Assembly: GCA_000310025.1 (NCBI GenBank)
Contig: FN649741.1
Location: 809,379 to 873,378, forward strand
DNA: 64,000 nt
Origin: Ectocarpus siliculosus
Lineage: Eukaryota; Sar; Phaeophyceae; Ectocarpales; Ectocarpaceae
Direction: 5' to 3'
Shown piece after piece: positions 14,030 through 23,740 of this stretch (positions within the stretch are counted from its first letter, which is position 1; each line of letters starts with the position of its first letter). The translations under genes were made by a program, and so were the position numbers. The notes beneath the pieces were generated by a model, which worked only from the letters and a program-made list of their open reading frames with translations, had not been told where the DNA came from and made no database searches.

Positions 14030-14879
14030 ATGGTGACCACCAACATCAGCAGCAGGGCGCCCATGAGCAGAGAAAGGCTCACGGGCTCGGGCACCGGTGC
14101 CATTGGCGGCGAGGTTTCGGGCTGGAAGAAAGGCTCCATCGTTAGCCTCAAGATGAAAAACTTTCTCGTGTACAAGGACGCCAAGGCCGTGTTTGGGCCA
14201 CGCCTGAACATGGTCGTGGGGCCGAACGGCTCGGGAAAGTCTACGCTCGTGTGCGCCATTGCGCTCGGCCTGGGCGGTTCCCTCAAGGTGAGAGCATTCA
14301 TTGCACAGGAGCAGTCTCAGCAGCGGGTTGTTGTTCATCATTCATGTGTCGGGGCTACAGCAGCCGTAGTAGTCGTCGTCATGCTGCGGCGCATGCATGG
14401 TGCAGGCGCGGGATCTTCCTGCCTGGTGGGGGGCCCGCATCGAAGCCACACGGCTCCAACTACGACTTTGAAGAAAATTTTCTGGGAAGTTGGCGCTGAA
14501 TTGACGGTGATATATGCACGTGTCTACAGCCGCAGTGTGCTCATTGTTTTTCATTTTCCAAACTCGCACACACGGCCTGCAACCTGCAACAGAACTGCAG
14601 ACAGATGTGGCAGACCGCTTGTGGACACAGAGGCAATTTTTTTCTCGGTCTTGCTTGGCTTTTTTGGAAGTAGAAATGTTGTACCGCGCTGCTACGCCCA
14701 AACTACATAGACTACAATGCTGACGTACCTCCGGAGTTCGTTTAACTTTCCAACTTTGGCGATCTGCTTCTCCAAGGGCGCAAACATACGGAACACAACC
14801 GATATGCATCGTTGTGTGTGTATGGAAGAAAGAAAAGGTGCGGTGCGCGTACGCGGGTAAAAAAAAGGAAAACACCCGT

Positions 14880-14960
14880 CTCCGTCATGCGAGGTCAATG
14901 AATGGTCTCACAAGTACGGCATGCACGACTATGAGTAACACCGCCCCCCCCTCTCTGTCA
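14880..14960 (+). mobile_element. LINE 3'-end fragment (solo tail)
   Basis: GGTCAATGAATGGTC, then ACGGCATGCACGACTATGAG, then a C-rich run. This is the same 3' terminus as the LINEs at 2437 and 11105 and the fragment at 44740-44835. It lies in SMC5-B intron 1. Only the tail is present, consistent with severe 5' truncation on insertion. Confidence 0.65.
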
Positions 14961-15451
14961 GAACTCATAGCTCAAAACCGCGTTGTTGTTGACGGTCCCA
15001 CGAAACACGGCGCCTCACAACCCCGGCATACGTAGAGAGCAGGGTTTTCTATTCTTGCTTGCGATGGCTTGGACAAGCGGTGTAGATTTATTGCCCAAAC
15101 AGCAGTGCATGTTGCACCCCATCCTCCCTGAATGTTTCTGTCATCTTGCCCGCTACACTCGGCTATTACCTTCGATACGTAGACATATCATTGGATGGGG
15201 AATCGGTGGAATATCGGGCGGGTTATTTGTGTTAGGACTGTGGCGTTATGGTCTATCCCTTGCCTCTCTATTACACTACAAACTACAAGCGTACAAAGAG
15301 CCTACAGGTAGGCCGCCCGACCCTTGCGAATTTGCAGATTTTGGAACCGCAACTTGTTGTGTTCCTTGTAGCGTACAACACGCTCGAGTTGTAGACAGCG
15401 TGGCCGAGCTGACTCATGGTTCAATCAAAGTGGGATTTATAAGTGCGGAAT
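14961..15451. other. SMC5-B intron 1, open frame without recognised domain
   Basis: A + frame from 14983 to 15453 (156 codons) includes a Gly-rich hydrophobic stretch (IIGWGIGGISGGLFVLGLW). It has no recognisable relatives or splice context, and it ends at the inverted arm of the TPR array. I treat it as probably non-coding. Confidence 0.3.
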
Positions 15452-18226
15452 GAAACGTTATCGACCGCGCCCGCCCGGTTGTCGACCGCCTTGACGCATC
15501 TGGGTACCCCTGGCCCCGAGCGTTCCCTCCAACGGCTCATGACCGTTTGAAGAGTGGCTCTGTCTCAGCACACTTGCCGTGATACGTGGTGAACACCACC
15601 ACGCCAGGTCCGATGGTAGTCAACACCCGAATGAGACCACGGTGCTCAAATTGTCTGCAACTCACCACCTGATTAGCCAACAATTAACGCCCGGTTCTCG
15701 AGCACCGTGGCCACATCAGGATGCTCTGGACCTAGCACCTTCTCTGTTATGGCCTGTGACCGCTCGTAGAGTGGCTCAGCCTCTTCGTACTTGCCCTGGC
15801 TTTCAGTCTTACTGCATGCCAGGGCAAGTACATTGAGGCCGAGCCACTGTACGAGCGGTCACAGGCCATACAAGAGAAGGTGCTAGATCCGGAGCACCAT
15901 GATGTGACCACGGTATTTGAATTGTCTGCAACTCACCACCTGATTAGCCAACAACAACGCTTGTTCTTGAGCACCGTGGCGACATCAGGATGCTCTGGAC
16001 CTAGCACCTTCTCTGGTGTGGCCTGTGACCGCTCGTAGAGTGGCTCAGCCTCTTCGTACTTGCCCTGTCGTTCAGTCTTACTGCATCCCATGGCAAGTAC
16101 ATTGAGGTCGAGCCACTGTACGAGCGGTCACAGGCCATACAAGAGAAGGTGCTAGATCCGGAGCACCCTGATGTGACCACGGTGCTCAACTTGTCTGCAA
16201 CTCACCACCTGATTAGCCAACAATTAACGCCCGGTTGTTCGAGCACCGTGGCCACATCAGGATGCTCTGGACCTAGCACCTTCTCTGGTGTGGCCTGTGA
16301 CCGATCATACAGTGGCTCAGCCTCAGCATACTTGCCCTGGCTTTCAGTCTCTACTGCATGCCATGGCAAGTACATTGAGGCCGAGCCACTGTCTCGAGCG
16401 GTCACAGGCCATAACAGACAAGGTGCTAGGTCCGTAGCACCCTGATGTGACCACGGTATTTGAATTGTCTGCAACTCACCACCTGATTAGGCAGCAACAA
16501 CGCTTGTTTTTGAGCACCGTGGCCACGTCAGGATGCTCTGGACCTAGCACCTTCTCACGTATGGCCTGTGGTCGCTCGTACAGTGGCTCAGCCTCTTCGT
16601 ACTTGCCCTGGCGATCAGTCGTACTCAAATTGTCTGCAACTCACCACCTGATTAGCCAACAATAACGCTTGTTCTTGAGCACCGTGGCCACGTCAGGATG
16701 CTCTGGACCTAGCACCTTCTCTGGTGTGGCCTGTGACCGATCGTACAGTGGCTCAGCCTCTTCATACTTGCCCTGGCTTTCAGTCGTACTGCATGCCATG
16801 GCAAGTACATTGAGGCCGAGCCACTGTACGAGCGGTCACAGGCCATACAAGAGAAGGTGCTAGATCCGGAGCACCATGATGTGACCACGGTGCTCAAATT
16901 GTCTGCAACTCACCACCTGATTAGCCAACAATTAACGCCCGGGTCTTGAGCACCGTGGCCACATCAGGATGCTACGGACCTAGCCCCTTCTCTGTTATGG
17001 CCTGTGACCGCTCGTAGAGTGGCTCAGCCTCTTCGTACTTGCCCTGGCGTTTGTCGTACTGCATGCCAGGGCAATTACATTGAGGCCGAACAGCTGTTCG
17101 AGCGGTCACAGGCCATACAAGACAAGGTGCTAGGTCCGGAGCACCCTGATGTGACCACGGTGCTCGAATTGTCTGCAACTCACCACCTGATTAGGCAGCA
17201 ACAACGCCCGGATCTCGAGCACCGTGGCGACATCAGGATGCTCTGGACCTAGCACCTTCTCTGGCATGGCCTGTGATCGCTCATAGAGTGGCTCAGCCTC
17301 TTCGTACTTGCCCTGGCGATCAGTCCTACTGCATGCCAGGGCAAGTACATTGAGGTCGAGCCACTGCTCGAGCGGTCACAGGGCAAAACAGACAAGGTGC
17401 TAGGTCCGTAGCACCCTGATGTGACCACGGTGCTCGAATTGTCTGCAACTCACCACCTGATTAGCCAACAATAACGCCTGTTCTTGAGCACCCGGACTAC
17501 ACCGGGGTTCTTGGGAACTAGCCCCTTCTCTCGTATGGCCTGTGACCGCTCGTACAGCGGCTCAGCCTCAGCATAGTTGCCCTGGCGTTCAGTGTTACTG
17601 CATGCCAGGGCAAGTACATTGAGGTCGAGCCACTGCTCGAGCGGTCGCAGCCCTACAAGAGAAGGTGCTAGGTCCGGAGCACCATGATGTGACCACGGTG
17701 CTCAAATTGTCTGCAACTCACCACCTGATTAGCCAACAATAACGCTTGTTCTTGAGCACCCGGACTACACCGGGGTTCTTCGGAACTAGCCCCTTCTCTC
17801 GTATGGCCTGTGACCGCTCGTACAGTGGCTCAGCCTCAGCATAGTTGCCCTGGCTTTCAGTCGTACTGCATGCCAGGGCAAGTACTTTGAGGCCGAGCCA
17901 CTGCTCGAGCGGTCGCAGCCCTACAAGAGAAGGTGCTAGGTCCGGAGCATCCTGATGTGGCCACGGTGCTCAACAACCGGACGTTGATGTTGTGGCTTAT
18001 CAGGTGAGTTGTAGACAATCTTCCTCCGCAATTAGTTCTAGATCTCGTTTTGACTGCAATCCTACCCGGTGTGGCGCTGTTTTCCATATACTTCTATCAT
18101 GGCAAGTGTGCTGAGACAGAGCCACTGTTCAAACGGTCATGAGCCATGGGAGGGAAGGTTCGGGGCCTGGAGTACCCAGATGTGTCCAGGCGGTCGACAA
18201 CCCGGCGGGCGCGGCTGTTAACGTTT
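15452..18226. repeat. tandem array of head-to-head TPR cassettes (8 paired units plus a half unit) with inverted flanking arms
   Basis: Each unit of about 270 bp has a TPR-coding segment on the minus strand joined head to head to one on the plus strand, then a linker containing GCAACTCACCACCTGATTAG. Plus-strand junctions lie near 15825, 16093, 16367, 16801, 17071, 17341, 17610 and 17879. The 434-bp step at 16367-16801 holds a minus half whose plus partner is deleted. The minus halves read KYEEAEPLYERSQA and VLGPEHPDVATVL, and the plus halves GKYIEAEPLYERSQA. These are the 42-residue TPRs of the kinesin-light-chain/NB-ARC-TPR type. The outer arms (15452-15582 and 18099-18224) are more diverged TPR copies, inverted to one another, with GTCGACAACC and a GC-rich edge. 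Stops and lost acidic positions show it is not one coding gene. It lies wholly within SMC5-B intron 1. Confidence 0.85.
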
Positions 18227-18521
18227 TAATCCTCAGTTGTATGTTACACGTCACATGCAAACGTCAGCTTACCGCTGTTGTTGGTCATTGGAGCGTATTG
18301 TTCGCACACGTGCAGCAGTACGTGCAATGTCTTTTCCGCGTCTGGCCGTAACGTAAGGTGTAGGGGCGCGCGGACAACCTGAGCGCGTTTGTGATGTACG
18401 GCGTCAAAAGGGAAGACGCCTCAGTGATGGTGGAGCTCTACATGCCGGATGGGAACAACCTCCACGTCACCAGGACGTGCTCGAGAAAGAACAACTCGTC
18501 CAACTGGCACATAAATGGCAG

Positions 18522-20224: not shown

Positions 20225-20448
20225 CCACACCCCTGGACCGATTTTCAAGCCTCGACTTCTCCATAGCAGAAAGAGACTTCTCCACAGCAGAAAGAGACTT
20301 CTCCACAGCAGAAAGAGACTTCTCCACAGCAGAAAGAGTGGCGGTGGGACCGTCTCGTGGACACCTTTCCGAAAACGTATTGTTTGATTTTGGCATCCTC
20401 TTCGTCGTGGAGAAACCGAGCTTTGAAAATCGGTCCTGGGGGTGTGGT
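20225..20448. mobile_element. MITE-like element, copy 2, with internal 21-bp tandem repeat
   Basis: The left end CCACACCCCTGGACCGATTT and right end AAATCGGTCCTGGGGGTGTGG are inverted repeats of about 37 bp, the same ends as the element at 1-177. Just inside the left end, a 21-bp unit (AGCAGAAAGAGACTTCTCCAC) is repeated about four times at 20254-20338. The unit includes the inner edge of the terminal repeat. No transposase is encoded. It lies in SMC5-B intron 3, immediately past the truncated end of the SNF2 fragment. Confidence 0.8.
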
Positions 20449-22630: not shown

Positions 22631-23150
22631 CGTAATGATATAGGGTAGCTCTCTACCTGCAGTCCATCCCCTTGAAGCGCAAGCGCCCAGCTACATACCG
22701 TGCTGTCCCCGCCCCCGATGGCTACGGTCCCAGTTTGAGTGAAAAGCCCGCAAGAATGGCGTACGTCGCCTCTCTTTGGCCCGACTCACACGGCTCAGAC
22801 GCCAATACCCCGTTGCCTACACCAGGGTGCAGCAGCTTCGTCAGAGGCCGAAAGAGAAGGAAGGTTGACTCAAGTATTTTTCTCAGAGAATGACAGACAT
22901 GAGGGAAGCAGGGAAACCCTCGCTCGTCATGTCCATCATATCATACCCATATTGTCCACGTCACCCTCCGGACCCGTAGATCAGCAAGTAGTTTGCCGAG
23001 TACACCCTAATTTATCGGATAAGAGAGGGACAGGCGGACAGAGACACTCACAACAGTACAATGGAGGGCATAGTCAGCGAGATGTGCTCCATGTCCGTAT
23101 GCACGTGTCGTAACAGTATCAGTAGTCCTGGACATAACAACCAATTTACC

Positions 23151-23337
23151 ATATTAGATTTATATAACATATTAGATTTATATACCATATTAGATTTATA
23201 TACCATATTAGATTTATATACCATATTAGATTTATATACCATATTAGATTTATATACCATATTAGATTTATATACCATATTAGATTTATATACCATATTA
23301 GATTTATATACCTTAGATTTATATACCATATTAGATT
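23151..23337. repeat. 18-bp AT-rich minisatellite
   Basis: About ten head-to-tail copies of CATATTAGATTTATATAC, one shortened, sit in SMC5-B intron 3. The apparent (ILDLYT)n peptide is a product of the repeat. Confidence 0.95.
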
Positions 23338-23603
23338 TACAACTCGTTTCAAGGCGATTGCGAACTCATTTCTCAAGTAGACGATGCGTTATTGTTAACT
23401 TACGAAGTCGACGTCGTGCCACGTTCCTCATTCCGAATAGCTTTTCCTTGGTTGTGTTGTGTACTTTTTACAGGACAAGATCGGCGACTTCTCGGGCTTT
23501 ACGCCAGATAGCTGCTGCTGGAAACGGAGAAGGCCTTGTCCATCACCGAGCTGTACGACCCGCACATGAAGCTCATCGACCTGCAAGACTCGGTGAGTCA
23601 GAT

Positions 23604-23740
23604 ATCCTTTGTCTTTGTCTTTGTCTTTGTCTTTGTCTTTGTCTTTGTCTTTGTCTTTGTCTTTGTCTTTGTCCTTGTCTTTGTCTTTGTCTTTGTCTTT
23701 GTCCTTGTCCTTGTCTTTGTCCTTGTCCTTGTCCTTGTTC
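23604..23740. repeat. (CTTTGT)n hexanucleotide array
   Basis: More than twenty CTTTGT/CCTTGT units begin about 12 bp after the donor of SMC5-B exon 4. The T-to-C variants cluster at the 3' end. Confidence 0.95.

Follow-up and report, generated by a model that had tools for sequence, protein, structure and literature searches.

Background

Archives of silent cassettes serve antigen or receptor variation in the vls, VSG and lamprey VLR systems, where variant partial copies of an immune-type gene lie side by side. In Arabidopsis, MIRNA genes are said to be born by inverted duplication of the gene that they come to target, a model credited to Allen et al. 2004. In soybean, according to the account in PMC3534067, inverted pieces of gene families fold back at the CHS cluster (I locus) and at the Gm14 aquaporin repeat; these loci have exact short matches to family members, siRNAs have been measured and CHS has a phenotype. 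For brown algae, PMC11378527 cites earlier work (Zambounis 2012, Teng 2023) for the shuffling of TPR exons in NB-ARC-TPR genes.

We describe here a locus of Ectocarpus siliculosus that shares traits with each of these systems. Like the brown algal shuffling genes, it is built on the same single-TPR exon (126 bp at the reference gene on contig C27), with the same coding consensus. Like the soybean loci of PMC3534067, it consists of inverted gene-family pieces that fold back and contain exact short matches to family members, but its copies are intronic and ninefold and it is known here from sequence alone. It resembles the Allen model in being an inverted duplication of a would-be target gene; however, its exon core has no conserved 21-nt block and no mature miRNA is known from it. 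As in the vls, VSG and VLR archives, variant partial copies of an immune-type gene are adjacent, yet there is no sign of variants passing between array and genes. Among the literature matches listed, titles and abstract openings describe no inverted TPR exon arrays. We propose that a piece of an NB-ARC-TPR receptor gene, two exons long, was probably duplicated here in inverted orientation, and that the locus is the amplified, decayed and non-coding product.

Host gene and array architecture

The window, that is the whole stretch of 64,000 nucleotides analysed (contig C16 in our numbering), contains the 5' part of an SMC5 gene, which serves chromosome maintenance:

14030..14287, plus strand: SMC5 exon 1, from the ATG (borders set by eye; the joined translation matches SMC_N and SMC5 chains)
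14288..18363, plus strand: SMC5 intron 1, host of the array (GTGAG donor, TAG acceptor; borders set by eye)
18364..18521, plus strand: SMC5 exon 2 (borders set by eye; SMC_N and SMC5 matches of the joined translation)

The first three exons, joined into 126 residues, match SMC5 (best PDB chain, E 6e-26) and the Pfam family SMC_N (E 2.1e-15). Since the exons on either side of the array jointly match SMC5, the intronic position given in the preliminary description is borne out. Further downstream in the window, tandem repeats were observed at 23147-23339, 23607-23738 and 20254-20338 (18-bp unit x 10.9, CTTTGT x 22 and 21-bp unit x 4, respectively).

A profile made from four TPR exons of the C27 receptor gene recovered 19 TPR exon copies in 15438-18241, namely nine inner minus copies, eight inner plus copies and one outer copy on each side:

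15438..15584, minus strand: decayed B-type TPR exon that forms the outer left arm (profile match at 15474-15578; repeat search; tree)
15670..15795, minus strand: minus copy 1, an inner TPR pseudo-exon (127 nt up to the donor, out of frame; profile)
15823..15911, plus strand: plus copy 1, likewise an inner TPR pseudo-exon (truncated at the tail junction; profile)
15941..16064, minus strand: inner minus copy 2 (125 nt; profile)
16092..16193, plus strand: inner plus copy 2 (profile)
16210..16336, minus strand: inner minus copy 3 (128 nt; profile)
16365..16454, plus strand: inner plus copy 3 (frameshift and stop; profile)
16484..16607, minus strand: inner minus copy 4 (125 nt; plus partner deleted; profile)
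16649..16772, minus strand: inner minus copy 5 (125 nt; profile)
16800..16897, plus strand: inner plus copy 4 (profile)
16918..17043, minus strand: inner minus copy 6 (127 nt, in-frame stop; profile)
17070..17166, plus strand: inner plus copy 5 (profile)
17188..17312, minus strand: inner minus copy 7 (126 nt; alone among the nine in keeping the frame up to the donor)
17340..17436, plus strand: inner plus copy 6 (in-frame stop; profile)
17458..17581, minus strand: inner minus copy 8 (125 nt; with private variant tract)
17609..17705, plus strand: inner plus copy 7 (frameshift; profile)
17726..17849, minus strand: inner minus copy 9 (125 nt; with private variant tract)
17877..17993, plus strand: inner plus copy 8 (sole plus copy with the splice donor kept; frameshifted)
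18095..18241, plus strand: decayed B-type TPR exon that forms the outer right arm (profile match at 18101-18188; repeat search; tree)

With the strand order --+-+-+--+-+-+-+-++, the layout is one of head-to-head pairs in tandem, the head-to-head neighbours lying 26-28 nt apart. Tandem Repeats Finder gave periods of 269 and 268 bp, and of 165 bp where one half is missing; both the nine minus and eight plus inner halves and the inverted pairs of about 270 bp that had first been noticed by inspection were therefore recovered. The numbers of the two strands differ because one pair lost its plus half, by a deletion between 16607 and 16649. A 268-bp unit matches the eight other units on the same strand with E values of 1.8e-119 to 9.2e-61 (self match excluded), a likeness beyond chance, and the repeat search found 87% complementarity between the outer arms (15438-15584 and 18095-18241). 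The assembled array sequence is free of N.

One further element is repeated along the array:

15651..17732, minus strand: invariant 26-nt tail block in nine copies, centred on the antisense splice donor

These copies start at 15651, 15922, 16191, 16465, 16630, 16899, 17169, 17439 and 17707. The block is identical in all nine units, although 73 of the 277 columns of the unit alignment vary (P 0.018, column shuffle), and outside the array it has no genome match within 3 mismatches. Its donor contains an extra GTG at C16 which is absent from the related locus on C24 described below. Crossovers may favour this block, or its donor may have been retained.

Source of the copies

The 268-bp unit gave at least 84 matches in the organism's own genome (189.5 Mb, 492 contigs), the array itself included; the genome searches score best candidates only, so that such counts are lower bounds. 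When one minus copy was used as query, the best-scoring gene exon was found on C27 (86% identity over 98 bases), at a locus with an NB-ARC match upstream (E 1e-5). The preliminary description had derived the cassettes from single-TPR exons of NB-ARC-TPR genes, and the C27 match supports this derivation. The best ungapped matches of the inner copies without core indels to gene exons are at 77-86%, a measure which undervalues copies with indels. Two inner copies were tested and gave TPR_12 and TPR_10 matches, one above the curated cut-offs and one below.

The NB-ARC-TPR locus on C27 (L020, C27:3655500-3660500) is informative about the arms. Four full 126-bp TPR exons alternate there with decayed exons of a second type, and the locus is thus a tandem two-exon unit of which one half is dying. 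The outer arms cluster with these decayed second-type exons (clade 99/97), and 15387-15812 can be aligned, at 69%, with an exon-intron-exon stretch of C27; on this clustering and alignment, each arm appears to be a fragment of an NB-ARC-TPR receptor gene that comprises two exons. Copies of one exon are present in opposite orientations at one locus, with a related gene elsewhere. Unlike the C27 gene, which runs in one direction with full exons, the array alternates strands and has no intact exon chain; indeed, no succession of in-frame 126-bp TPR exons on a single strand, as in NB-ARC-TPR genes, was found in it.

Likeness among copies

Within the 98-base core (gapped alignments), the minus inner copies have a mean identity of 87.5% among themselves (76.5-98.0%, n=36) and the plus inner copies of 90.4% (85.7-98.0%, n=28). 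The proper comparison for the outer arms is that between opposite-strand inner halves, which are 82.0% identical on average over this core, none of the 72 pairs exceeding 86.7%. The outer arms are 90.8% alike over their TPR part and 87.1% over 147 nt. The inner arms are therefore less alike than the outer ones, and the earlier statement that likeness is much greater among the units than between the outer arms fails. Head-to-head partners showed no extra likeness over non-partners (permutation P 0.67), so that homogenisation between arms was discarded. Recent amplification or conversion had been suggested: tandem amplification is upheld by the periods and the same-strand likeness, but recent conversion between arms is not, in view of the partner comparison.

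Coding state

From exon start to donor, minus copies 1 to 9 measure 127, 125, 128, 125, 125, 127, 126, 125 and 125 nt, and the 126-nt frame is consequently gone from eight of nine; seven of the eight plus copies end at the tail junction. Loss of the coding frame is what a gene-fragment inverted duplication would display.

Synonymous changes number 4 of 18 in five plus copies (4.8 expected without selection; the three plus copies with core indels excluded), a proportion that gives these copies an unselected appearance. There is a weak excess in seven minus copies (8 of 18 against 4.6 expected, P 0.06) and in all nine (13 of 31 against 8.3, P 0.04). Variable positions of 22 copies also track weakly those of 110 gene exons (Spearman 0.25, P 0.015). 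We have no explanation for the synonymous excess and the position tracking, which may go back to ancestors that still coded. Together with the invariant tail block, each of them could reflect some constraint, past or present.

Related loci and history of the pair

Part of the window is found again, in reverse orientation, on C24:

14949..18302, no strand assigned: segment common to the C16 window and the C24 twin (flank and segment alignments)

The likeness extends from 14949 to about 18302, flanks included, and the segment measures 3.3 kb at C16 and 1.6 kb at C24. In the twin (C24, about 2574250-2575811, reversed), the outer arms and both junctions, tail and head, are those of the window; it also contains a run of N and two or more head-to-head pairs. 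Seven reading frames and two pieces of C24, examined for genes next to the twin, gave no Pfam match. A third locus, on C14, has a single head-to-head pair without outer arms. The head-to-head gap is 27-28 nt at both C24 and C14.

Opposite-strand neighbours within 400 bp occur at 6 of 26 loci (the window and L018-L042, a non-random sample picked for likeness to the array; at most six pairs were listed per locus, the remaining window gaps being taken from profile coordinates). They are head-to-head at C16, C24 and C14, and tail-to-tail at C464, C10 and C6. A pattern for the palindromic junction, run over the whole genome, occurred at five forward places (three of the eight junctions of the window, C14 and C25) against one for the reversed control; it missed the C24 junctions, and the search is therefore non-exhaustive. 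The C25 place was rejected as a further junction of this kind: it is a chance hit, because the locus proved to be a one-strand gene, and the reversed control also gave one. Besides, the tail-to-tail TPR exon pairs L024:412-717 (C10) and L026:13-319 (C6), with exons 67-69 nt apart, constitute a second kind of inverted pair, one exon of the C10 pair being sister to one of the C6 pair (100/99).

The tree has 99 columns and 65 rows, with 33 of 60 forks open and the bootstrap unsettled; its gene rows are the 25 best by ungapped likeness and the exons of L018-L021, L024 and L026. The eight plus copies form one clade (99/94) with one arm of C24 (two exons) and one of C14. Seven minus copies group together with a support of 94/92, below the star; the remaining two, those carrying the odd tract, form a pair of their own, and the other arms of C24 and C14 are unplaced. 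The composition of the plus-copy clade implies that the two arms separated before the loci did, and hence that C16 amplified a pre-existing pair. The shared junctions and the tree support the view that the head-to-head pair formed only once.

Alternative explanations

Several other readings were weighed against a decayed inverted duplication. The finding of one segment at two loci (3.3 and 1.6 kb) and of a solo pair at a third might suggest a foldback-type transposable element that captured receptor exons, but neither target-site duplication nor terminal inverted repeat was seen at the segment ends at C16 and C24, where such an element should have both. In addition, the left flank matched one other locus only and so did the right, both being found in the genome at C16 and C24 alone; a transposon was rejected on these grounds and we consider it very unlikely. 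An unannotated antisense TPR gene, with the nine minus copies as exons and the plus copies as introns, deserves equally little credence: it would account for the splice donor and the surrounding 26-nt block kept in nine of nine minus copies, for the first 32 codons open in eight of nine and for the weak synonymous excess (P 0.04-0.06), but its outer exons are decayed and joining exons of which eight of nine are not 126 nt long would shift the frame, and on this ground it was rejected. The least probable of all, if only by a little, is the conversion reservoir put forward in the preliminary description, in which the copies would give variants to receptor genes by gene conversion or recombination. 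PMC11378527 contains a comparable proposal for kelp, with LRR-only sequences as a reservoir for LRR shuffling, and receptor loci do have long exact stretches in common: 262 nt between two loci on C2 (L029 and L030, about 500 kb apart on opposite strands) and 241 nt between C10 (L023) and C2, from which TPR gene segments appear to have been exchanged or duplicated recently. The longest exact match between the array and any of 22 receptor loci is, however, 36 nt, and the distinctive tract of the array occurs in two places, both in the array, and nowhere else at up to 3 mismatches. Inner copies free of core indels do not exceed the 77-86% ungapped identity to gene exons given above, and donated copies would carry frameshifts. 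Exact-match lengths, the genome search for the odd tract and the tree thus give the reservoir no support, and no passage of variants in either direction, nor any variant common to cassettes and genes, was seen in the 22 loci and one genome pattern search.

A hairpin-siRNA or proto-miRNA locus is unlikely as well, though clearly less so than these three; the diced intron would silence NB-ARC-TPR receptors, as plant inverted duplicates do, a role that the preliminary description had also raised. By computation, the sense strand folds into a long double strand (-0.667 kcal per nt, six other stretches of equal length in the window giving -0.324 to -0.358), and 60 of the 1921 distinct 21-mers of the array have a perfect antisense partner within it; perfect internal duplexes of 28 nt are present and none of 32 nt. 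An exact 21-mer is common to the array and 12 of 22 receptor loci. RNAi-type domains are encoded in the genome (Piwi at 1 locus, RdRP at 2, RNase III at 2, the second weak); these are domain matches, no Dicer gene being identified as such, and the Piwi and RdRP counts agree with PMC3145265, which lists a single Argonaute and two RdRPs for Ectocarpus. Moreover, PMC4513859 places 75% of Ectocarpus miRNA loci in genes, mostly in introns and mostly on the host strand. Against these points, only 27 positions combine perfect pairing in the array with an exact receptor match, in 2 of 22 loci, and the sharing of 21-mers is ordinary: receptor loci share them with 3-19 of the other 21, and the sharing by the array is therefore family likeness. 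Pairing is not partner-specific, and 14300-18400 has no Rfam match at the gathering score. A guide block conserved and complementary to targets was found neither in the exon core (97 positions, 22 copies), which lacks any conserved 21-nt block, nor in the tail block, which has no target because it is unmatched outside the array. A single constrained miRNA block was likewise dismissed, the longest invariant run in the core being 4 nt (P 0.89). Finally, what PMC4513859 (Tarver et al. 2015) states of Ectocarpus miRNAs is that there is no evidence of their origin from protein genes. Folding is equally strong in the C14 pair (-0.70 kcal per nt) and in the C24 twin, run of N included (-0.69 kcal per nt). 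On its predicted fold, the array could feed silencing.

As a separate observation on the machinery, the two RdRP loci (C474:77892-84393 and C17:1194778-1201306) closely resemble each other in the pattern of their matched stretches, and their in-frame stops are of the same kinds; we read this as recent duplication or as the presence of a second haplotype among the assembled contigs.

Conclusions

In the reading that we favour, a decayed inverted duplication, two TPR exon copies would have been joined head-to-head in a single event, the neighbouring exon and intron becoming the outer arms. The product has been copied to at least three places, as the loci on C16, C24 and C14 show. In SMC5 intron 1 at C16, the pair was then amplified to nine, most likely by unequal recombination between tandem repeats, as the same-strand likeness and the tandem period suggest. 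Transcription of SMC5 would yield an intron with a very long imperfect RNA foldback, as predicted by the computed fold. Most likely, it has no present role kept by selection and is spliced out and discarded, occasional dicing being a possible by-product.

If the array functions at all, it may do so like the plant inverted-repeat siRNA loci (soybean CHS, aquaporin). A wider proposal, that dispersed receptor-exon hairpins give small RNAs which restrain the alga's own NB-ARC-TPR receptors, with C16 reinforced by ninefold amplification in the housekeeping transcript of SMC5, is doubtful.

Land plants are known to control immune receptors by small RNAs, and brown algae evolved multicellularity independently. 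If the proposal were true, receptor-hairpin silencing would be a brown-algal counterpart of plant small-RNA control of NLR genes, and if dicing of the array took place, a separate lineage would have a silencing locus of receptor origin. It would also have originated from a protein-gene duplicate, an origin for which Tarver et al. 2015 (PMC4513859) report no evidence. If the array is not diced, it still documents, in a good state of preservation, the origin, spread and amplification of inverted exon pairs in a shuffling-prone family; it also cautions that inverted copies which are dead can enter the counts of TPR exons in genomes of this kind.
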